Origin: Alphaproteobacteria bacterium
GTDB lineage: Bacteria; Pseudomonadota; Alphaproteobacteria; Sphingomonadales; Kordiimonadaceae
Reading direction: 5' to 3'
NCBI GenBank assembly: GCA_006226495.1
Contig: SBGU01000044.1
Span: 1-64,000 of the forward strand
DNA length: 64,000 nucleotides
Of the stretch, positions 5,503 through 63,624 are shown piece by piece; position 1 is the first letter of the stretch; every line of letters starts with the position of its first letter. The notes beneath the pieces were generated by a model, which was not told where the DNA came from, searched no databases, and saw only the letters and a list, made by a program, of their open reading frames with translations. The position numbers and the translations under genes are program-made.

Positions 5503-7890
5503 TCAGGCGCCTTCTTGTTCCTGCAGTACGACACGCCCGACATCCTGGCGCCAGGTCTCGATGCGTTCGGGCCGGCCCAGCAGATAACCCTGCGCTTCGT
5601 CGCAGCCTTCGGCCTTCAGCATGGCGAACTGGGCCGTGGTTTCGACGCCTTCCGCCAGCACCGGCATGCCCAGGCCGTGGGCAAGGCCGATCACGCCGCG
5701 CACGATGGCAGCCGATTGCGGGCTGTCGATCATCTGCATCACAAAGGCCCGGTCGATCTTCAGCTTGTCGAACGGGAAATTCTGCAGATAGCTGAGCGAA
5801 CTGTAGCCGGTGCCAAAATCGTCCATCGCCAGCCGGATGCCCAGCGCCTTCAGGGACCGAAGCACATCAAGCGCGCGGCCTTCGTCGGCAATCAGGACAC
5901 CTTCGGTGATCTCGAGCTCCAGCCGGTCCGCCCTCAGGCCATGGCGGCTGGTGATGCGCTGGATCAGTTCCACCAGACCGTCCTCAAGGAACTGCACGGG
6001 CGAAAGGTTGATCGCCACCGACAGCGGCAGCGCCCAGCTCGCGGCTTCGCGGCAGGCTTCGTTCAGTATCCAGATGGAAATATCGTTGATGACGCCGGTT
6101 TCTTCCGCCAGCGGGATGAATTCATTCGGCGGGATCATGCCCTTTTCCGGGTGTTTCCAGCGAAGCAGCACTTCAAAGCCGGCCAGCGAGCCATCGGCCA
6201 CCCGGTATTGCGGCTGGTATACCAGGAACAGTTCGTGCCGGCCCAGCGCACCCAGCAGGTCCTGCTTCAGCCCGCGCCGCAGCTCCAGCTTGCGATCGGT
6301 TTCATGGCCATAAAAACAATAACGGCCCCGGCCTTCGGTCTTGGCACGTTTCATGGCGATTTCGGCACGCAGCAGCAATTCCTCGGTGGTATTGCCGTCA
6401 CCCGGGAAAATGGCGATGCCGGTCCCCGCAGTGACCGACACCATCTGGTTGCCGATAATGAAAGGCTTCACAAGCCGGCGCCTGAGCCGAAGTGCAAGCA
6501 GGTCAGCGGCTTCCGAATTTTCGATATCTTCCTGGATGATGCAGAACTGGTCAGCCGACAGGCGCGCCACCGTGTCGATGTCACGGGCAGCTTCCTTCAG
6601 CCGGTTGGCAATTTCCTTCAGAAGCTCGTCGCCGCCCTTCTGGCCCAACTGCACGTTGATATCGTTGAACGTGTCGATATCGACAAAATAGAGCGCGACC
6701 TTCTTGCCCGACCGTTTGCTGATCGTGAGGCTGTGTTCCAGCCGGTCGGTCAGCACCGCGCGATTGGCAAGGCCGGTGACCGTGTCGTGGCTGGAAAGAT
6801 AGTCGATCTGCTGTTCGTGGGCCCGGCGTTCGCGGATATCGCGCACGATGGCCACATGGGTCGCATCCGTGCGGTCCTGCACCGGGCGGAAGAAAATCTC
6901 GGTCGGGATTTCGCTGCCGGAGGCACCGATCAGCAGCGCGTCGCCCACATAACCCGCGGAGCGGATGCCGGTGCCGAAGCTCAGATTCTGGAAACAGACC
7001 GTAAAGGGCATGCTGCGCAGGGTGGCGAGACGCCGGCCGCACAGGCCCAGGAAACTGTGGTTGGCATCCACGATGCAGCCCTTGTCGTCCAGAAGCACGA
7101 TACCCTCAAGCGCCGCGTTGGCCAGGCCCTTCAGGCGCAGGGTTTCAAGACGCCGCCGCTCGGCCAGGTGCCGGTCCAGAAGCGCGCCAGACAGGCTGAA
7201 GGCCAGGATAACCATGGTCGCAACCGACACACCGAAGATCAGGAAGGCATCAGAGAGCGCCCCGCCCGGCACCGCGATGGTGGGGTCAGGCGTCACCACA
7301 AGGGCTGCCATGGCTGTAAAATGCAGGCCGCAGATGGCCAGCGCCAGCGCCGAACCTTCCGCGATATGGTGCTTCACACCACCCCGGGTTTTCATGAGCC
7401 ACATGGCCAGTACCGAACCACCGACACCCAGGGCAACGGACAGGACAATAAGGGGCATGTCGTAGGTGAAGCCGCCCTGCAGGCGGAGGCCCGACATGCC
7501 CAGATAATGCATGGCACCAATGCCAAGGCCCATCACCGTGCCCGCAGCCACAAAACCCAGCTTGTGCCGGCTGAAGGTGGCGACGGAAAAAGCCAGGCCC
7601 GACATGATAATGGCAACAATCACGGATACGACGGTGGGCACAAACGCATAGCCGCTTTCTGTGCCCGGATCATAGGCGAGCATGGCGACAAAATGGGTGG
7701 CCCAGATGCCGCTGCCCGCGGCAACGGCGGTCAGCATCAGCCAGCGGCGACGAATGCGCCCGTGCGATTCTGAAATACGCTGCGCCAGGCTGGCAACGGT
7801 GTAGCAGGCAAAAAGGCAAATGACGGCGGCAAGCAGAACCAGGCGGAAATCATGGTCGACCACAAGACACTGGTAAATTTTTTCAACCAT
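5503..7890 (-). CDS. MHYT-PAS-GGDEF-EAL cyclic-di-GMP protein
   Basis: About 795 residues. An N-terminal seven-helix MHYT sensor shows the repeated signatures ATHFVAM, AMHYLGM and LHFTAM; such domains are proposed to bind copper and sense gases. A PAS-like region and a GGDEF domain follow, then EAL. The GGDEF signature is degenerate (RLSADQF), so cyclase activity is unlikely. EAL keeps EVLLRW, ELEITEGV, DDFGTGYSSL, KIDR and AEGVET, so phosphodiesterase activity is expected. The start at 7890 (MVEKIYQC) matches usual MHYT proteins; GTG 7923 and ATG 7917 are alternatives, and none has a strong ribosome site. Confidence 0.92.
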   Translation of the reverse strand: MVEKIYQCLVVDHDFRLVLLAAVICLFACYTVASLAQRISESHGRIRRRWLMLTAVAAGSGIWATHFVAMLAYDPGTESGYAFVPTVVSVIVAIIMSGLAFSVATFSRHKLGFVAAGTVMGLGIGAMHYLGMSGLRLQGGFTYDMPLIVLSVALGVGGSVLAMWLMKTRGGVKHHIAEGSALALAICGLHFTAMAALVVTPDPTIAVPGGALSDAFLIFGVSVATMVILAFSLSGALLDRHLAERRRLETLRLKGLANAALEGIVLLDDKGCIVDANHSFLGLCGRRLATLRSMPFTVCFQNLSFGTGIRSAGYVGDALLIGASGSEIPTEIFFRPVQDRTDATHVAIVRDIRERRAHEQQIDYLSSHDTVTGLANRAVLTDRLEHSLTISKRSGKKVALYFVDIDTFNDINVQLGQKGGDELLKEIANRLKEAARDIDTVARLSADQFCIIQEDIENSEAADLLALRLRRRLVKPFIIGNQMVSVTAGTGIAIFPGDGNTTEELLLRAEIAMKRAKTEGRGRYCFYGHETDRKLELRRGLKQDLLGALGRHELFLVYQPQYRVADGSLAGFEVLLRWKHPEKGMIPPNEFIPLAEETGVINDISIWILNEACREAASWALPLSVAINLSPVQFLEDGLVELIQRITSRHGLRADRLELEITEGVLIADEGRALDVLRSLKALGIRLAMDDFGTGYSSLSYLQNFPFDKLKIDRAFVMQMIDSPQSAAIVRGVIGLAHGLGMPVLAEGVETTAQFAMLKAEGCDEAQGYLLGRPERIETWRQDVGRVVLQEQEGA

Positions 7891-55208: not shown

Positions 55209-55744
55209 GAACTCTCTCCTTCAGGGTCGGTCGCACGTTCGCCGACCTTTGGGGCATTTTTAGGACCTTTATTCCCGGCCCGCAAGCCATCAATGATCAA
55301 CAGGGCCACACCAACGGTAATGGCGCTGTCGGCAAGGTTGAACACATAGAAACTGTAGCCTGCAGCATGTAGGTGCACGAAGTCGACCACGGCGCCATGC
55401 ACAAAGCGGTCGATAACGTTGCCGACAGCCCCACCCAGGATCATGGCGATCGACAGCGCCTCGAAGCGGCGTGTGCTTTGTGCAAGCCAGCGCGCCAGCC
55501 ACAGGCTGATCGCGATGGTGAGCACGATAATGCCCCATTTGCCCAGGGTCTGGCCGATGGGCAGACCCATCGAGATGCCATAGTTCCACACCATGGTGAA
55601 ATTCAGGAACGGCAACAGTTCGACACTGCCGCGCGCGGGCAACTGAAGACCATGCAGCACCCAGTATTTGCTGATCTGGTCGGCCACCATCAGGATGGCG
55701 CCGATCAGAAGCCCGAAACGGAACTGGGGGCCCGGCTTGATCAT
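55205..55744 (-). CDS. lspA: Lipoprotein signal peptidase
   Basis: A 179-residue inner-membrane aspartyl protease that removes signal peptides from prolipoproteins. The catalytic Asp residues are in GNVIDRF and NLADSAI. Four membrane segments are visible. It overlaps ileS upstream (ATGA at 55741-55744) and DUF3035 downstream by four bases each, so all three are coupled. Residues upstream of 55744 belong to the ileS reading region and are excluded. Confidence 0.95.
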   Translation of the reverse strand: MIKPGPQFRFGLLIGAILMVADQISKYWVLHGLQLPARGSVELLPFLNFTMVWNYGISMGLPIGQTLGKWGIIVLTIAISLWLARWLAQSTRRFEALSIAMILGGAVGNVIDRFVHGAVVDFVHLHAAGYSFYVFNLADSAITVGVALLIIDGLRAGNKGPKNAPKVGERATDPEGESS

Positions 55745-58578
55745 GCGGCGTCCATCTTCGCCACGGCGTCGTCGCAGCGGTTGCAGAGGTCGCCGTGCTC
55801 GTGCGCGGTCACTTCCTCGGACACGACCCAGCAGCGCTGGCACTTCTCGCCCGCGGCAAGGCTGGTGACCACGGCCACGCCCTTGACATCTTCAAGGCTG
55901 AAGGCGCCATCGGGGGCCTGGCCCTGTTCGATGGTCGCGGTCGAGGTGATGAACAGCTCGGCGCCGTCAAGGCCGTCGAAGGCCGCGACATAGTCGGCAT
56001 CCGAGACATAGACCGCCACACTGGCCTGCAGGCTGGAACCGATGCGTTTTTCACGCCGGTCGACCTCAAGCGCCCCGGTGACCACACGGCGCAGCCGGCG
56101 GATGCGGGTCCATTTTTCGGCCAGCGCGTCATCACGCCAGGACGCCGGCGTCGTGGGCCAGACCTGCAGGTGCACGCTTTCGGCATCATCGCCAAAGCGG
56201 CTGAGCCAGACTTCTTCCGCCGTGAACGACAGGATGGGCGCGAACCAGGTCACGAGCCGCTTGAACACCTCGTCCAGCACCGTGCGCGCGGCGCGGCGGC
56301 GGACCGACATCGGATGGTCGCAGTAAAGGCAATCTTTCCGGACATCAAAATAGAAGGCCGACAGGTCGACGATGCAGAACTGATACAGCGCCTGGAAGAT
56401 CGGGTTGAAATCGAACTCGGCCGAACGCTCGCGGATCAGGGTGTCGAGGCTGGCGAGACGGTGCAGCACAAACCGCTCCAATTCCGGCATGTCGGCGGCA
56501 TCGAGGCGTTCTTCCTCGGTGAAGCCATGCAGGTTGCCCAGAAGGTAGCGCACGGTGTTGCGAATCTTGCGGTAGGCGTCGACCTGGCCCTGGATGATCT
56601 GGTCGGAGATGCGCACATCTTCCTGATAATCCACCGACACGGTCCAGAGGCGCAGGATATCGGCGCCATACTGGTCGATGATCTTCTGCGGGGCGACCGT
56701 GTTGCCCAGCGACTTGGACATCTTGCGGCCTTCGCCGTCCAGCGCCATGCCGTGGGTCAGCACATTCTTGTAGGGCGCCACGCCGCGGGTGCCGCAGCTT
56801 TCCAGAAGGCTGGACTGGAACCAGCCGCGGTGCTGGTCCGAGCCTTCGAAATACAGGTCCGCCGGGCTTGCGAGTTCCGGGCGTTTTTCCGAAACAAAGG
56901 CGTGGGTACAGCCGCTGTCGAACCAGACATCAAGGATGTCGAAAATCTGCTCATACTGGTCGGCATCATATTTGTCGCCCAGAAGGTCCTGTGCGGGTAC
57001 GGCCACCCAGGCGTCGGCACCGCCGGCTTTTACCGCCGCGATGATGCGGTCGTTCACTGCCGGGTCTTTCAGGATTTCGCCGGTTTCCTTGTGCACGAAG
57101 ATGGTGATGGGCACACCCCAGGCGCGCTGGCGCGAGATCACCCAGTCCGGGCGGTCGGCAACCATGGCCTCGATCCGGTTCTTGGAGATGGCCGGGAACC
57201 AGTTCACATCCTCGCGGATGGCCTTCAGCGCCTTGTCGCGCAGGCCGGTTTTTTCCATCGAGATGAACCATTGCGGCGTGTTGCGGAAAATAAGCGGCGC
57301 TTTCGAGCGCCAGCTATGCGGATAGCTGTGGCTCAAGGTACCCTTGGCCATCAGGGCCTGCACACCGCCCAGAAGGTCGCAAACCTGGTCCGCGACCTTG
57401 TAGACATGCTCGCCGGCCACCAGGGGCACATGCGGGTAATAACAGCCGGCTTCGTCGACCGTATAGGGCACGGCGATGCCGAACTGCACATGCGCGACCT
57501 GATAGTCGTCGTCGCCATGGCCCGGCGCCGTGTGCACAAAGCCGGTACCGGCGTCGGTGGTTACATGCGCGCCCGGCAGCAGCGGCACGTCAAACTCGTA
57601 GCCCTGGCCACGCCAGGGGTGTGCCAGCACGCCGCCTTCGAAGTCGCTGCCCTTGAGGCGCGAGATAACGAGGTAATTGTCGATACGGGCGCGTTTGACA
57701 AAGTCGACCGCCAGCGCGTCGGCAACCACCAAGCGGTCGCCCACCTTGGCGAGCATGCCGTCGCCCGGTTCCGTCACTTCAAGCACCACATAGTCGATTT
57801 CGGAGCCGTAACAAACGGCACGGTTGGCCGGGATGGTCCAGGGCGTGGTGGTCCAGATCACCACCCGCGCGCCTTCAAGGTCGGCATGCGGGGCCTTCAC
57901 AAACGGGAAGGCCACATCGATCTGGGTCGAGGTATGGTCGTGATATTCGACCTCGGCTTCCGCAAGCGCGGTTTTTTCGACCGGCGACCACATCACCGGC
58001 TTCGACCCGCGGTACAGCGAATCCGACATGGCGAATTTCAAGAGTTCTTCCACGATGGTGGCTTCGGCGTCGAAGGCCATGGTGGTATAGGGATTGTCCC
58101 AGTCGCCGATGATGCCAAGGCGTTTGAACTGGTCGCGCTGCACATTGATCCAGTGGTCGGCAAATTCACGGCATTCGCGGCGGAATTCGACCGGGTCGAC
58201 CTCGTCCTTGTTCAGCTTTTTCTTGCGGTATTTTTCCTCGATCTTCCATTCGATCGGCAGGCCATGGCAGTCCCAGCCCGGCACGAAGGGCGCGTCCTTG
58301 CCCTGCATCTGCTGGGATTTGACAATCACATCCTTCAGGGTCTTCTGCATGGCGTGGCCAAAGTGGATATCGCCGTTCGCATAGGGCGGGCCGTCATGCA
58401 GCACAAATTTCTCGCGGCCCCTGGCTTCGGTGCGCAGGCGGCCATACAGGTCCTGGTCGTACCAGCGCTTCAGGAATTCCGGCTCGCGCTGCGGCAGGCC
58501 CGCGCGCATGGGAAATTCGGTTGTCGGAAGGAAGACGGTGTCGCGATAGTCGCGCTTGGTGCTGTCGTCAGCAGACAT
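55741..58578 (-). CDS. ileS: Isoleucyl-tRNA synthetase
   Basis: A 945-residue class I synthetase. The HIGH-type motif is in GDIHFGHAM, the second in GRKMSKSLGN. The editing domain lies between. The C-terminal zinc-binding CQRCWVVSEE and CNRC are present, so this is the bacterial type 1 form (mupirocin-sensitive class). First gene of the ileS-lspA-DUF3035 operon. Confidence 0.98.
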   Translation of the reverse strand: MSADDSTKRDYRDTVFLPTTEFPMRAGLPQREPEFLKRWYDQDLYGRLRTEARGREKFVLHDGPPYANGDIHFGHAMQKTLKDVIVKSQQMQGKDAPFVPGWDCHGLPIEWKIEEKYRKKKLNKDEVDPVEFRRECREFADHWINVQRDQFKRLGIIGDWDNPYTTMAFDAEATIVEELLKFAMSDSLYRGSKPVMWSPVEKTALAEAEVEYHDHTSTQIDVAFPFVKAPHADLEGARVVIWTTTPWTIPANRAVCYGSEIDYVVLEVTEPGDGMLAKVGDRLVVADALAVDFVKRARIDNYLVISRLKGSDFEGGVLAHPWRGQGYEFDVPLLPGAHVTTDAGTGFVHTAPGHGDDDYQVAHVQFGIAVPYTVDEAGCYYPHVPLVAGEHVYKVADQVCDLLGGVQALMAKGTLSHSYPHSWRSKAPLIFRNTPQWFISMEKTGLRDKALKAIREDVNWFPAISKNRIEAMVADRPDWVISRQRAWGVPITIFVHKETGEILKDPAVNDRIIAAVKAGGADAWVAVPAQDLLGDKYDADQYEQIFDILDVWFDSGCTHAFVSEKRPELASPADLYFEGSDQHRGWFQSSLLESCGTRGVAPYKNVLTHGMALDGEGRKMSKSLGNTVAPQKIIDQYGADILRLWTVSVDYQEDVRISDQIIQGQVDAYRKIRNTVRYLLGNLHGFTEEERLDAADMPELERFVLHRLASLDTLIRERSAEFDFNPIFQALYQFCIVDLSAFYFDVRKDCLYCDHPMSVRRRAARTVLDEVFKRLVTWFAPILSFTAEEVWLSRFGDDAESVHLQVWPTTPASWRDDALAEKWTRIRRLRRVVTGALEVDRREKRIGSSLQASVAVYVSDADYVAAFDGLDGAELFITSTATIEQGQAPDGAFSLEDVKGVAVVTSLAAGEKCQRCWVVSEEVTAHEHGDLCNRCDDAVAKMDAA

Positions 58579-58809
58579 AAGTCAGGTCTCGCTTTGATGG
58601 TCTGTGCGCCCCTCGGGGCCGGCACGGCATACTGATATTCTGGATCGATACTTAAAAACTGATACCCCGGTCGCCAGTTATAGCGCCGGGCCAGTAATTC
58701 GAATGATCAGGGCAGGCAGGCGCCGCCGGTATGTCCGTACATCAGGCATGGCGGAACTTTTATCAGCGATAAAACGGGGTGTCGAGCGGAAAGGCGCGCG
58801 ATCTGGGCC

Positions 58810-59340
58810 CTAGAGCCCCCTGAAAACCTTGCGCAGATTTTCGACCGGGAACAGCCCTTTCTGGCCGGTCCGGCGCTCGGGGCCCTGATAGCCGCCCGTG
58901 CCCATGCGGCGGTTCGGGCCATAATAGCCCGTAACCCGGATAAAGGGCTTCGGGTCGTCGATCACGGAATCGAGGTTCTTGACCAGGCTGGCGGTGGTGA
59001 AGGGCATGGCCAGCATCTTGTTCACGCCGGCATCGCGCGCCTGGATCACCTTGGTGCGGTCCGGTTCCTTGATGGCATAGAGGATGGGCGCCACCGATAT
59101 CGGCGCATTCTGGAAACGGATGAAGCGGCAGAAATCAAGTCCGCCCGTGTCCGGGAACGTATCCTCGACCAGCAGCAGGTTGAAGGCCGTGGTTTTCATA
59201 TGCTCCATGGCAACACGGTTGTTATCGGCGATCACGATATGGGCGGCACGCTGTTCCTTGAACACAGCACGCGCCCCCACGGCGGCCTGGCCATTTTCAA
59301 GCGCGATCAGGACCCGAAGGTCGCTCTTGTCCCCCAACAT
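58810..59340 (-). CDS. Degenerate receiver-domain protein with GPNRR tail (copy A)
   Basis: A 176-residue protein with a CheY-like fold. The phospho-acceptor position is kept (Asp60 in LLLVEDTFPD), but the acidic pair after the first strand is replaced (VLIALENG), and the conserved Lys before Pro-Phe is Met112 (LAMPF). A C-terminal tail contains YYGPNRR and YQGPERR, similar to GPDRR motifs in other alphaproteobacterial receiver proteins. It is probably an adaptor that is phosphorylated weakly or not at all. It starts at 59340 after CTGGAG. It lies 108 bases downstream of its paralogue. Confidence 0.82.
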   Translation of the reverse strand: MLGDKSDLRVLIALENGQAAVGARAVFKEQRAAHIVIADNNRVAMEHMKTTAFNLLLVEDTFPDTGGLDFCRFIRFQNAPISVAPILYAIKEPDRTKVIQARDAGVNKMLAMPFTTASLVKNLDSVIDDPKPFIRVTGYYGPNRRMGTGGYQGPERRTGQKGLFPVENLRKVFRGL

Positions 59341-59448
59341 GCTCCAGCCTTCCGTCCGTTCCAGTTCAAGCCCTTGTGCGCGACACACATTCCTACCCCA
59401 TAGCGCGTTTTGCGCGGGCGTGTCTGCACCTGATTGTGTGAATTTTTA

Positions 59449-59991
59449 TCAGGACTTGACGTTGGCAAGGATGCGGCGCTTCAGTGCATCCGAAATGATA
59501 TCCGGGTTTTTGGAGCGGCGGTTACCGCCCGCAGGCAACGGCCCCTGGCGCACGCGACGATCCGGGCCATTATAGGACGTGGATTGCACAATGGCCCGGG
59601 TGTCATTGGCCGCATCCTCGATCGCCTTCAAAAGCGAGGCGCCCGAGAAGGGCATGACCGCAATCTTGGTCGCGCCGGCATCACGCGCCTGCAGCACGGT
59701 TTTCTGGTCGGGCGCATGCAGGCCGAAGATGATGGGCGCCAACGCCATCGGGGTGGTGGTCAGGCGCAGGAAACGGCAGAAATCAATGCCGCCCAGGTGC
59801 GGGAATTTCTCGTCGATCACAACAAGATTATAGGCACGGCTTTGCATCTGCTCGACGGCATCGCGATTGTCCGTCGGCGCAAAAACACCGCCGACACGCT
59901 GGCGCATCAGAATGTCCTTCAGGCTTGCGGCGGCCTGAGCATTGCCCATCGCAAGCAGGATATGCAACTGATCAAGTGGCGTGCCCGCCAT
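59449..59991 (-). CDS. Degenerate receiver-domain protein with GPDRR tail (copy B)
   Basis: A 180-residue paralogue of the next gene. Shared features: Asp60 in VVIDEKFPHLGGIDFCRFLR, Met113 in place of Lys (AVMPF), and the tail motif YNGPDRR. The missing acidic pair (HILLAMGN) means metal-dependent phosphorylation is doubtful. The two copies have the same length and order of blocks, so they arose by tandem duplication. No histidine kinase is nearby; cheY-cheZ at 62.3-63.6 kb is the closest two-component gene pair. Confidence 0.82.
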   Translation of the reverse strand: MAGTPLDQLHILLAMGNAQAAASLKDILMRQRVGGVFAPTDNRDAVEQMQSRAYNLVVIDEKFPHLGGIDFCRFLRLTTTPMALAPIIFGLHAPDQKTVLQARDAGATKIAVMPFSGASLLKAIEDAANDTRAIVQSTSYNGPDRRVRQGPLPAGGNRRSKNPDIISDALKRRILANVKS

Positions 59992-60087
59992 GCTGTTTTC
60001 GTCCCTCCCAAACCGTGCGCTTTCAGCTTATTGGGCGGATGTTAACATTATTTGTAGCATATGAAAGCGCCGGATTGGGTTCTGCCA

Positions 60088-60801
60088 TCAGGACTGTTTG
60101 CGCCGTTTGCGCCGGATCAGGTTCAGGCTTTCGACCGCCAGCGAATACAGCATGGCGAAATAGATGTAGCCCTTGGGCACATGGAAGCCGAGACCTTCGG
60201 CCACCAGGAACACGCCGATCAGCATGATGAAGCTGAGCGCCAGGATCTTCAGGGTCGGGAAACGGTCGATGAAGGATGCGATGAAGCCGCTTGAGAACAT
60301 CATCACGATCATGGCCACGGTCATGGCGGCAATAATTACAGGGATGCTTTTGGTCAGGCCCACAGCGGTCATGACCGAATCGAACGAAAAGACGATATCG
60401 ATGAGCATGACCTGAATCACCACAGCCACGATGCCGCCGGCGAAGGATTTGTAGCTTTCCTGTTTGTCGCCCGTCACTTCGTCATGGATGCTGTTGGTGC
60501 CCTTGTACAGGAGGAAACCGCCGCCCAGCAGCATCAGGATATCCTTGCCCGAAAATTCCTCGCCAAACAGCGTGAGCCAGGGTGCTTCGAGCGAGATGAT
60601 CCAGGCCACGCCCAGAAGAAGCAGGATACGCATCAGCAAAGCGAGGCTGAGACCAATCAGGCGGGCGCGTTTTGCCTCTGCCGCCGGCAGGTGCCCGACC
60701 AGAAGCGCGATGAAGACCACATTGTCGATGCCGAGGATGATCTCAAGCGAGGTCAGGGTCAGGAAACTTGCCCACAGATGATAGTCGAACAGGAAATCCA
60801 C
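60088..60801 (-). CDS. TerC-family integral membrane protein
   Basis: A 237-residue membrane protein with seven to eight hydrophobic segments. The TerC signatures are LTSLEIILGIDNVVFIALL near the start and VMLIDIVFSFDSVMTAVGL in the middle, with intramembrane acidic residues. Related proteins handle metal ions such as manganese or sit with membrane translocation systems; a tellurite role need not apply. The start is GTG at 60801 with GGAGG at the right distance. Confidence 0.9.
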   Translation of the reverse strand: MDFLFDYHLWASFLTLTSLEIILGIDNVVFIALLVGHLPAAEAKRARLIGLSLALLMRILLLLGVAWIISLEAPWLTLFGEEFSGKDILMLLGGGFLLYKGTNSIHDEVTGDKQESYKSFAGGIVAVVIQVMLIDIVFSFDSVMTAVGLTKSIPVIIAAMTVAMIVMMFSSGFIASFIDRFPTLKILALSFIMLIGVFLVAEGLGFHVPKGYIYFAMLYSLAVESLNLIRRKRRKQS

Positions 60802-60864
60802 GCTGGTCCTCCGTCTTTCGGCATTGGCCCGCCTTGATGCGCAACCGGTGCCATGCGGTCCGTG

Positions 60865-61893
60865 TTATCGGGCCCGGACGTGTGGCGCCGGGAATAACTC
60901 CAGATAGCGATCAAGGCTGGGCGGTTCAAGCCGGCCCCGCGCATTTTCGGGTTCCGCCAGCACCACCTTGGCCACCGTGCAATCGCGCGCGATCTGGTCC
61001 TTCAGCGCATCGATGCCGTCGAATTTCTGTTCCGGGCGCAGGAAAGCCACCAGTTCGACCCTGAGGTGCCGGCCATAAATATCGCCGGCAAAATCGAACA
61101 GATGCACTTCAAGCCGCACATCGCGTTTGTCGAAGGTCGGGCGCCGGCCGACATTGGCCACACCCTGATAGATTTTCTTGTCGCCTTCCATGTGCACGCG
61201 CACGGCATAGACACCCAGCCGCGGCTCCAGGCTTTCGCCCAGTTCCACATTCGCGGTCGGGAAACCGATGGTGCGGCCACGCTTGTCACCTTCCGTGACC
61301 CGGCCATTGATCGACCACCAGTGCCCCAGAAGCGCAGCCGCCTTGCGGGCTTCGCCCGCCTGCAACGCCTGGCGCACGAGGGTCGAGCTGTAGACTTCGC
61401 CTGCGTACCCCTCGAGCCCCACGGTGACGGGCCGGATGACGGTCAGGCCAAAGCCTTCCATCTCACCCATCCAGGCCAGGACGTCGGTGCCGCCGCCACG
61501 CGACTTGCCGAAGCGGTAGTCATAGCCGACGCACACATGCATGGCACCCAGGCCGTCCAGCAGGACATGTTGCACAAAATCCTGCGCCGACATGGCGGCC
61601 AAAGACTTGTCGAACGGCAGCACCAGAAGCTGGTCGACCCCAAACTGTTCCAGAAGCTGCAGGCGTTCGCGGAACGGGGTCAGGCGAAAGGGCGGTTTGC
61701 CGGGCGCAAAAAAACTGACCGGATGCGGTTCGGTAACCACCACGGTCAGGTTCAGGCCCATCTCGCGGGCCAGGCGGCCGGCCTCGCCGATCACGACCTG
61801 GTGGCCGCGGTGAAATCCATCGAAATTGCCAAGCGCGACCACGGAACCGCGATCTGCGGTGGTCACTTCATTGATGTGGCGGAAGAGCCTCAT
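60865..61893 (-). CDS. ribF: Bifunctional riboflavin kinase / FAD synthetase
   Basis: A 342-residue enzyme that makes FMN and FAD from riboflavin. The FAD-synthetase half starts with VVALGNFDGFHRGHQ and contains GYDYRFGKSRGG; the kinase half contains RTIGFPTANVEL and the C-terminal VHLFDFAGDIYG. In many alphaproteobacteria it directly precedes ileS; here terC and two receiver genes intervene. AAGGACAGG precedes the ATG. Confidence 0.96.
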   Translation of the reverse strand: MRLFRHINEVTTADRGSVVALGNFDGFHRGHQVVIGEAGRLAREMGLNLTVVVTEPHPVSFFAPGKPPFRLTPFRERLQLLEQFGVDQLLVLPFDKSLAAMSAQDFVQHVLLDGLGAMHVCVGYDYRFGKSRGGGTDVLAWMGEMEGFGLTVIRPVTVGLEGYAGEVYSSTLVRQALQAGEARKAAALLGHWWSINGRVTEGDKRGRTIGFPTANVELGESLEPRLGVYAVRVHMEGDKKIYQGVANVGRRPTFDKRDVRLEVHLFDFAGDIYGRHLRVELVAFLRPEQKFDGIDALKDQIARDCTVAKVVLAEPENARGRLEPPSLDRYLELFPAPHVRAR

Positions 61894-62250
61894 GCCTGTC
61901 CTTGTCCGATCATTCTTGTCGGCCCCGCACGCACCGGGTACCCGGCACAGGGGACTGGACCGGGGACATACACCATCGACGCCGCCGGGGCCACCGTTTT
62001 GTCAATTCCCGCCGATACATGGCCATGCCCGGACCGGCCGGTTTCCCGCGACAGGACCCAATGCCACGCTTATTTATGGCCCCTCGGGGTAAATGAGGGC
62101 GAATCCGCCACGGGAAGTGATTGAAACTTAGTCATCTTTGGGTTAACCAATTCTTCACCGGATAGGGGCTAGTGTCCCGAAAAGGGATAAATGCCGGTTG
62201 CCAGGGATGGCGGCCGGGAAGTGCGAAATTCAGAAAACCGAGGAAAAACC
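61894..62250. other. 357-base divergent control region (ribF / cheY)
   Basis: No gene seen. GC-rich near ribF, more AT-rich towards cheY, with a CtrA-like box at 62143-62159. A short reading frame ahead of cheY is out of keeping with the CheY start and is not counted. Confidence 0.6.
62143..62159 (+). promoter_or_regulatory. CtrA-like binding box upstream of cheY
   Basis: TTAA-N7-TTCACC matches the CtrA consensus TTAA-N7-TTAACC with one mismatch and exact spacing. It lies about 92 bases before the cheY ATG. CtrA controls motility and chemotaxis genes in many alphaproteobacteria; direct control here is inferred. Confidence 0.5.
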
Positions 62251-62637
62251 ATGGCCGTTGATATGGGTATGCCGATCCTGATCGTCGACGACTACAAAAC
62301 CATGCTGCGGATCGTCCGCAACCTTTTGAAGCAGTTGGGCTTCGATAACGTGGACGAGGCAACTGACGGCGCCATGGCGCTCGAGAAAGCCCGCGCCAGG
62401 CAATATGGGCTGATCATTTCCGACTGGAACATGGAACCGATGACCGGTTACGAGCTCCTGAAAGAGGTTCGGGCCGACAACCAGCTCAAGGGCACGCCCT
62501 TTATCATGGTTACCGCCGAATCCAAGACGGACAACGTGATTGCGGCCAAAAAAGCCGGCGTGAACAACTACATCGTCAAGCCGTTCAACGCTGCAACGCT
62601 GAAGCAGAAACTGGTCGCAGTGCTCGGAGAATTCTAG
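62251..62637 (+). CDS. cheY: Chemotaxis response regulator CheY
   Basis: A 128-residue single receiver domain with all canonical residues: Asp13-Asp14, phospho-acceptor Asp58 (SDWNM), Thr88 (MVTAES) and Lys110 (VKPF). When phosphorylated it binds the flagellar motor. AGGA before the ATG at 62251 supports the start. It abuts cheZ with no spacer. Confidence 0.96.
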   Translation: MAVDMGMPILIVDDYKTMLRIVRNLLKQLGFDNVDEATDGAMALEKARARQYGLIISDWNMEPMTGYELLKEVRADNQLKGTPFIMVTAESKTDNVIAAKKAGVNNYIVKPFNAATLKQKLVAVLGEF

Positions 62638-63624
62638 ATGTCTTCCGAACAGCTTCCCAAACAGATCCAACTTCTGGTCGACAGTTTGCGGAAGCAAAAT
62701 ACGGCGAACCTTTCCCTGACGGATGTTGCGTCGGTTACAGAAGTGCTGATTGGCACCATGCAGGTGTTTTTCCGCTCGATCGATACGTCGATCTATCGTG
62801 AATGTCGCTCGCTGTCCGACTATATCAGCAACGCCCGCAAGGAAATCGCCGCCCTGCAGCCAGGTGACCTGGAAAGCGCCCGTATCCCGCGCGCCGGGCT
62901 CGAGCTTGATGCCATCGTGCAGCAGACCGAAGAAGCCACCAACACCATCATGGAGGCGGCTGAGGAGATCATGGCGCTCGACCCTGCGGACATGGACAAA
63001 TATGTGTCCACAACCCAGGACGCCATGATGCGCATCTTCGAGGCCTGTTCCTTCCAGGACATTACCGGCCAGCGCATTTCGAAGGTTGTGGAGACCCTGT
63101 CCCACATCGAACAGCGTGTGCTGGAACTGCGCAACCTGCTGGGTGTGACCGAAGACGATATCGAAGAAGCCAAAGCCGCGCACAAGGACGAGGTCCAGCA
63201 GACCGACAAGGCGCTGCTGTCCGGCCCTGCGCTTGAAGGCGAAGGCATCGACCAGTCTGAAGTGGACGCGCTGATGAGCGGCGGTGCCGCCGCGGCGCCT
63301 GCCCCGGCCCCGGCACCTGCCCACGCGGCCAAAGCACCGGCAGCCAAGGCGCCGGCTCCAGAGCCCGCAAAAGCCCCGCCGCCCAAACCCGTCAGCCCCA
63401 AACAGCTCGACAAGATGTTCGAGGAGGATTTCGATCCTGTCGCCGAACATGCCGCCAAGGAAGCTGCCAAGGCCGAAGAGAAAAAGCGCGAGGAAGAAAA
63501 AGCCGCCGCTGCCGCCAAGGCCGCCGAGCCCAAGAAGAAGGACAACAAGTCGAAAGACGAGGAGTTCAATCTGCCGGCCGGTGAAGAAGTCAGCCAGGAC
63601 GATATCGACGCCCTGTTCGGCTGA
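62638..63624 (+). CDS. cheZ: CheY-phosphate phosphatase CheZ (extended)
   Basis: A 328-residue phosphatase, longer than the ~214-residue enterobacterial CheZ. The catalytic stretch SFQDITGQRISKVV has the key Gln140 in a long helical hairpin. The second half is an Ala/Pro/Lys-rich linker framed by two short acidic motifs: IDQSEVDALM (204-213) and the C-terminal VSQDDIDALF. Both resemble the CheY-binding peptide of FliM (SQDEIDALL type). They probably tether CheY. The ATG immediately follows the cheY stop codon, so translation is coupled. Confidence 0.94.
   Translation: MSSEQLPKQIQLLVDSLRKQNTANLSLTDVASVTEVLIGTMQVFFRSIDTSIYRECRSLSDYISNARKEIAALQPGDLESARIPRAGLELDAIVQQTEEATNTIMEAAEEIMALDPADMDKYVSTTQDAMMRIFEACSFQDITGQRISKVVETLSHIEQRVLELRNLLGVTEDDIEEAKAAHKDEVQQTDKALLSGPALEGEGIDQSEVDALMSGGAAAAPAPAPAPAHAAKAPAAKAPAPEPAKAPPPKPVSPKQLDKMFEEDFDPVAEHAAKEAAKAEEKKREEEKAAAAAKAAEPKKKDNKSKDEEFNLPAGEEVSQDDIDALFG

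Follow-up and report, generated by a model that had tools for sequence, protein, structure and literature searches.

Genes at the locus

In the stretch of DNA analysed here (64,000 nucleotides; hereafter, the window), ORF calling placed two adjacent genes on the minus strand, A (176 codons) and B (180 codons). They lie between terC and ileS on the same strand, and cheY-cheZ is found within 2–3 kb. The genes of this region are as follows.

55741..58578, minus strand: ileS, on the downstream side; all 17 syntenic loci give a match
58810..59340, minus strand: gene A, a Cle-like pseudo-receiver of 176 aa; phospho-acceptor position, Glu59; Lys109 position, Met112 (fold from model mbbbd0513cace)
59449..59991, minus strand: gene B, a Cle-like pseudo-receiver of 180 aa, with Asp60 kept and Met113 at the Lys109 position (fold from model m85aa67d77ff5)
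60088..60801, minus strand: a terC-like gene on the upstream side; all syntenic loci but L041 and L052 give a match (15 of 17)
60865..61893, minus strand: ribF, with a match in every syntenic locus (16) except one that is cut off
62191..62637, plus strand: a canonical cheY, with the acidic pair, Asp, Thr, and Lys all present
62638..63624, plus strand: cheZ, by profile match and synteny

The gene at 55741..58578 is the one that we take to be ileS from its sequence; ileS, terC, and ribF are housekeeping genes. The start of A was taken as the ATG at 59340, while an alternative GTG at 59388 would give a protein of 192 aa. An earlier note on this DNA had described A and B as adjacent paralogues of 176 and 180 residues; both ORFs were confirmed, and the two proteins are 36% identical.

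Against the Pfam model Response_reg (cut-off 30.2 bits), B scored 36.1 bits, over the cut-off, and A scored 29.9 bits, slightly below it. No NCBIfam model was found at its cut-off among the best 25 of 38 matches for A or the best 25 of 55 for B. The AlphaFold2 models (mean pLDDT of 82.0 for A and 80.7 for B) have a CheY fold in both cases. When these models were used in a structure search, the top matches were CheY entries, with TM-scores by target length of 0.89 (A) and 0.84 (B), and E. coli CheY is among the closest solved folds. A and B differ from it in that the phosphorylation pocket is gone and an arginine-rich tail is added. In the region 58550–62250, a promoter scan found no sigma-70-like sites against 1.3 expected, and five terminator-like sites were found against 3.7 expected.

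Residues of the phosphorylation pocket

Two features concern the receiver domain: the residue replacing the conserved Lys and an Arg in helix α4.

59005..59007, minus strand: Met112 of A, replacing the conserved receiver Lys (alignment and clade counts)
59035..59037, minus strand: helix-4 Arg102 of A, which corresponds in position to CleD R113; all eight A-clade proteins have R
59683..59685, minus strand: helix-4 Arg103 of B; R in 17 of 17 proteins of the B clade

At the positions of the acidic pair, the acceptor, Thr, and Lys, A carries Leu-Glu, Glu, Ile, and Met, and B carries Met-Gly, Asp, Leu, and Met; neither set is that of a canonical response regulator. Both proteins thus have a receiver fold without the key catalytic residues, as is characteristic of pseudo-receivers. 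The substitution of Met for the invariant Lys had been pointed out in the earlier note and is correct for both (Met112 and Met113). Two other statements of that note apply in part. The phospho-acceptor Asp60, which it assigned to both proteins, is present in B; in A, it is Glu59 that aligns with D57 of CheY, and Asp60 is the next residue. The acidic pair, which it described as absent from both, is broken in both, but only in B (Met-Gly) are both acidic residues gone, since the Leu-Glu of A keeps one of them.

The clades to which A and B belong show the same tendency. In the A clade (n = 8), the acceptor position is Glu in all eight proteins, the Lys position is Met in six and Leu in two, and Glu is found at the second acidic position in four. 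In the B clade (n = 17), the acceptor position is Asp in 11, Glu in five, and Ala in one; Met replaces Lys in 16 proteins and Val in the remaining one. Consequently, Lys occurs in none of the 25 proteins (Met in 22, Leu in two, and Val in one). The Ala acceptor belongs to Kordiimonas gwangyangensis, which is of the same genus as the genome of the window and provides the closest B orthologue found (79–80%). The positions of T87 and Y106 are hydrophobic in A and B, and these two residues are replaced throughout both clades, the Tyr106 position being occupied by Met, Ile, or Leu instead. Tyr106 of E. coli CheY takes part in FliM docking.

The broken acidic pair suggests that Mg2+ is not bound. 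The case is stronger for B than for A, because A keeps Glu at the second acidic position, which in receivers binds the metal directly (PMC12632262). Judging from the sequences, it is very likely that A and B function independently of phosphorylation, as the earlier note had proposed, since all that is left of the acidic pair, Asp, Thr, and Lys is a Glu in A, at the second acidic position, and the Asp in B.

The arginine-rich tail

The C-terminal tails of A and B contain the following arginine-rich elements (ARRs).

58870..58926, minus strand: tandem ARR of A, YYGPNRR...YQGPERR, residues 139–157; matches the CleD peptide of PDB 6sft (E = 0.01)
59554..59574, minus strand: first ARR motif of B, YNGPDRR, residues 140–146; an exact consensus copy
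59515..59529, minus strand: degenerate second ARR copy of B, GGNRR, residues 155–159; the Arg pair is kept and Tyr-x-Gly-Pro is gone

Both proteins had been said to end in a YxGP(N/D)RR element. The element is present, but about 20 residues follow it before the protein end, and A has two full copies, while B has one copy and a degenerate second one. Nor is it a new motif, a possibility that we rejected: it corresponds to the published ARR of the Cle proteins, a tandem with the consensus [YF]xGP[DE][RK]R. This ARR was reported from 302 proteins, of which 294 are alphaproteobacterial and 91% are CheY homologues (PMC5677366). The first copy of A has Asn where the consensus has Asp or Glu. The view of A and B as an undefined adaptor pair, with the Met and the tail as a package, is not supported, the tail being the known c-di-GMP-binding peptide of the Cle proteins (PMC5677366). 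When the PDB was searched with the tail of A, the CleD ARR peptide (6sft) was the top match, though a weak one (E = 0.01; the runner-up, 0.3). A structural paper on the CleD peptide is said to be that of Hee et al. 2020.

Among the 328 ORFs of the window (≥ 60 aa), [YFW]xGPxRR was found only in A (twice) and B (once). Residue shuffling gave a mean of 0.34 occurrences per ORF set and a maximum of 2 (200 shuffles). As a control, a single motif was found in 4 of the 1229 other ORFs of the fetched loci, corresponding to two different ORFs, each in two locus copies. A lone copy is therefore weak evidence; what carries weight is its constant position behind a receiver. Within the A and B clades, the first tail motif is kept in 24 of 25 proteins, the exception being L023, which is shortened by a stop codon, and the second basic pair is also kept in 24 of 25. 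The full second motif is found in only eight of the 25 (A, 2/8; B, 6/17), and it is likewise absent from 36 of the 69 tail-bearing proteins of the outside sample described below. The flank position is R in eight, K in seven, and A in one of the 16 B-clade proteins with the motif, and K in five, R in two, and T in one of the A clade (n = 8); in the outside proteins, it is R in 59 of 69. For these second-motif and flank counts, the positions were assigned by regular expressions.

Cle proteins require an Arg in helix α4, which is R113 in CleD (PMC5677366). The distance from the acceptor to the helix-4 Arg is 43 residues in both A and B, and the published numbers give 43 for CleD (113 − 70) and 44 for CleA. 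The ARR spacings of A and B also agree with the published Cle numbering within one residue. In the models, the pLDDT of the ARR is below 50 in A and about 55–75 in B; such low values are as expected of a peptide that would fold upon its ligand.

Several properties of the Cle tail bear on how these elements may work. Each CleD protomer takes up two c-di-GMP, and E. coli CheY binds c-di-GMP when the ARR of CleD is grafted onto it; the isolated ARR of CleA without its C-terminal region does not bind (PMC5677366). The c-di-GMP affinity of the tails in the A and B clades may be low, because the second copy of B is without Tyr-x-Gly-Pro and the full second motif occurs in only the eight proteins mentioned.

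Homologues, phylogeny, and selection

For comparison with other lineages of the class, 69 loci were sampled (29 automatically and 40 hand-picked for genome spread, five of these being repeats). They gave 71 different profile-matched proteins; two tail-less ones were set apart, leaving 69 tail-bearing proteins from 64 loci. The sample lies among the best-ranked matches and is non-random, and its bias works against pocket-keeping proteins because the search profile was built from pocket-less ones; one homologue search was pre-filtered for a tail-like motif. The table of pocket residues contains 78 different proteins scoring ≥ 75 bits, weaker rows having been dropped. Among the 69 tail-bearing proteins, a pocket was counted as kept when D or E occupied both acidic positions and Asp and Lys were present.

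The outside proteins contrast with the A and B clades. Of the 69, Lys is present in 67, Asp in 63, Thr or Ser in 66, the acidic pair, Asp, and Lys together in 59, and the helix-4 Arg in 68. These receivers are thus like A and B in fold family, tail, and helix-4 Arg, and unlike them in that phosphorylation could remain usable in the 59. The earlier note had asked whether the Met and the tail co-occur. In the profile search, they generally do not, 67 of the 69 keeping Lys, and we therefore rejected the Met and the tail as one co-inherited package. It had also named homologues that mostly keep the acidic pair and Lys as evidence against its own reading, and outside the Kordiimonas clade this is the situation observed (59 of 69 with pair, Asp, and Lys).

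The tree contained 68 rows, including every third outside protein shorter than 215 aa. A, B, and 15 more pocket-poor rows are located in one clade of 40 (support 100/97), in which the A group (99/99) and the B group (99/96) are distinct; at the base of the pocket-poor clade is one long-branched row from another family of the order. Pocket loss appears to belong mainly to this one clade, a marine group around Kordiimonas and its family. We infer that the direction was a loss, with caution, since the root is a midpoint chosen for drawing and the bootstrap is unsettled. Pocket-poor rows outside the main clade, and thus exceptions to a single loss, are L007 (Asn acceptor), L080 (neither Asp nor Lys), L034, and L035, all four of which lie inside the otherwise pocket-keeping group. 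The last two are near-identical, come from another family of the same order, and have Met at the Lys and Asn at the Asp position; their Met probably has a separate origin. At both loci (L034:2094-2615, plus strand; L035:851-1372, minus strand), there are tandem tail-bearing receivers, one of which has the acceptor Asn and the Met for Lys.

At least four more relatives are encoded elsewhere in the genome of the window, singly on contigs C35 and C55 and as a tandem pair on C28. The C28 pair (L004/L005, G000:C28:39436-40371) consists of pocket-poor paralogues, one with a tail and the other without a recognisable motif. The C55 paralogue (L007:1459-2010, minus strand) has a tail and keeps the acidic pair, Thr, and Lys, with Asn at the acceptor position. 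An ORF about 6 kb from it looks like flagellin.

A and B are maintained under purifying selection. In the eight of ten orthologue pairs that have a finite dS (it was saturated in the other two), dN/dS was 0.03–0.16, values that are rough because several dS exceed 1.5, and pN/pS was 0.07–0.33. With the motif residues also kept, the earlier opinion that the shared substitutions do not reflect decay is borne out, and A and B are a real, conserved pair.

Neighbourhood and genome context

Synteny was examined in 17 named loci (L038–L054). As for the conserved neighbours, about which the earlier note had asked, ileS is matched in 17, ribF in 16, terC in 15, and cheY in 14 of them; cheY lies upstream of ribF, and the three loci without it are cut off. 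lspA was matched in nine; of the other eight, some are cut off, and the overlap filter may have dropped others. The receivers themselves vary: A and B occur together in four loci, B only in 11, A only in one (K. laminariae), and an early-branching relative in one (Eilatimonas).

The position near terC, ribF, and cheY-cheZ without a kinase was also described correctly, in that the neighbours matched and no kinase was identified among the near neighbours of A and B, of which part of the ORFs were profile-searched. The only match in the genome to a CheA dimerisation domain is on another contig. The closeness of A and B to cheYZ may be passive.

Just past the right end of the window lies an EAL protein with a hydrophobic N-terminus (G000:C53:64532-66052, minus strand; L135:1033-2553). 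In NCBIfam, it comes closest to TipF, a c-di-GMP protein of flagellar assembly (E = 1.5e-77), with a score of 261 bits that is below the cut-off of 600. A relative of this TipF-like protein is found beside HAD-cheZ-cheY in 13 loci, and the remaining four of the 17 are cut off. In the genome as a whole, 12 GGDEF and eight EAL profile matches exceed the cut-off, which need not all be active. A GGDEF-EAL protein is encoded in the same window at 5569–6792 (minus strand; open frame of 812 codons). The one FliM match has the N-terminal sequence VLDQDEIDSLL, which is close to the published docking motif LSQxEIDxLL (PMC5677366).

Relation to known systems

By the sequence features tested, A and B probably belong to the known Cle kind, the second ARR of B being degenerate. 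CleA–CleE of Caulobacter crescentus (Nesper et al. 2017, PMC5677366) likewise consist of a single CheY-like domain with a C-terminal arginine-rich [YF]xGPx[RK]R and occur as several paralogues per genome, and the published positions give them a matching helix-4 Arg spacing. CleD resembles A in its non-Asp acceptor (Glu70), and its E70A variant is functional (PMC5677366). The differences, as far as the published description of the Cle proteins goes, are that members of the A and B clades have a broken acidic pair, have lost Thr and Lys, and often carry a degenerate second ARR. In addition, A and B stand in tandem between ribF-terC and ileS, close to cheYZ. The window has cheZ, a gene that Caulobacter reportedly lacks (PMC10579534).

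A and B also resemble the bacterial pseudo-receivers reviewed by Bourret et al. 2025 (PMC12632262), which have a receiver fold without the phosphotransfer residues. They differ in that a ligand can be predicted for them and a target proposed. The name 'CleD' is absent from the main text of the review. Among open-licence papers, no literature on this topic was found for Kordiimonas together with c-di-GMP or for GPDRR.

A possible mechanism and its alternatives

We consider it likely that A and B are Cle-family pseudo-receivers that would be switched by c-di-GMP alone and dock on the flagellar switch, with the binding as a prediction. Both c-di-GMP binding and FliM docking are what we infer by homology, and an effect on swimming is a guess from Caulobacter. 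In this mechanism, A and B would each act as a CheY fold with a flexible arginine-rich tail. Rising c-di-GMP, supplied and removed by the GGDEF and EAL enzymes of the genome, would be bound by the tail together with the helix-4 Arg. The bound tail would reshape the α4-β5-α5 face, which would dock on the N-terminal EID motif of FliM, and the docked proteins would compete with or replace CheY-P at the motor. c-di-GMP would be the sole input, phosphorylation having no part, because the pocket appears to have been lost in this lineage.

The proteins might instead be Cle-type c-di-GMP effectors whose partner lies outside the flagellar motor, such as a machine of the envelope or the cell pole. Of the five Cle proteins of Caulobacter, CleA and CleD are those reported to be linked to FliM (PMC5677366), the T87 and Y106 switch positions are replaced in both clades, and the nearest neighbours are terC, ribF, and ileS; nevertheless, the nearby cheY-cheZ, the upstream cheY in every locus that is not cut off there, and the docking motif kept in FliM make such a partner rather unlikely. 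An improbable reading, and the one nearest to the earlier note, is that the tail is dead as a c-di-GMP site and that both proteins act constitutively, as CheY-like decoys or adaptors controlled through their abundance. The degeneration of the second ARR in most proteins would agree with it, and the acceptor Glu could mimic an active state. However, the first motif (24/25), the second basic pair (24/25), and the helix-4 Arg (25/25) are kept, and drift would not preserve just these.

Decaying duplicates would account for the patchy presence in the 17 loci and for the stop codon in the B orthologue L023, but with the rough dN/dS values and the kept motif residues noted above, this is very improbable. 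That A and B are canonical phospho-receivers or phosphate sinks for CheA is hardly credible: Asp60 in B, one residue of the acidic pair in A, and the presence of CheA in the genome could be cited for it, but neither protein has an intact acidic pair, Lys, or Thr/Ser, the acceptor is Glu in A, and it is Ala in the closest B orthologue. Canonical phospho-signalling was accordingly rejected.

The new element in these data is the clade-wide loss of the pocket beside a kept tail, while most of the examined tail-bearing relatives keep the acidic pair, Asp, and Lys. According to a speculation in the 2017 Cle paper, phosphorylation was dropped in favour of c-di-GMP (PMC5677366). The pocket-less and pocket-keeping tail-bearing relatives may be regarded as a natural experiment on this idea, which makes it directly testable whether phosphorylation retains a role in Cle-type proteins. 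The pocket-keeping relatives may be two-input switches. Tentatively, and with considerable doubt, the Cle-type reading may be extended: the CheY-like proteins of the Kordiimonas lineage would be pure c-di-GMP switches, phosphorylation having been replaced altogether, whose pocket is free to erode while the tail and the helix-4 Arg do not change, A (intact tandem site) and B (weaker site) would form a two-threshold device tuning one motor at two c-di-GMP levels, and the pocket-keeping relatives would respond to both phosphate and c-di-GMP. The activation mechanisms of pseudo-receivers have been called a mystery (PMC12632262), and one set of them here gains a predicted ligand and a candidate target.

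Finally, CheZ of the window (62638–63624, plus strand) carries two FliM-docking-like stretches, IDQSEVDALM internally and VSQDDIDALFG terminally, both of which are possibly CheY-binding peptides.
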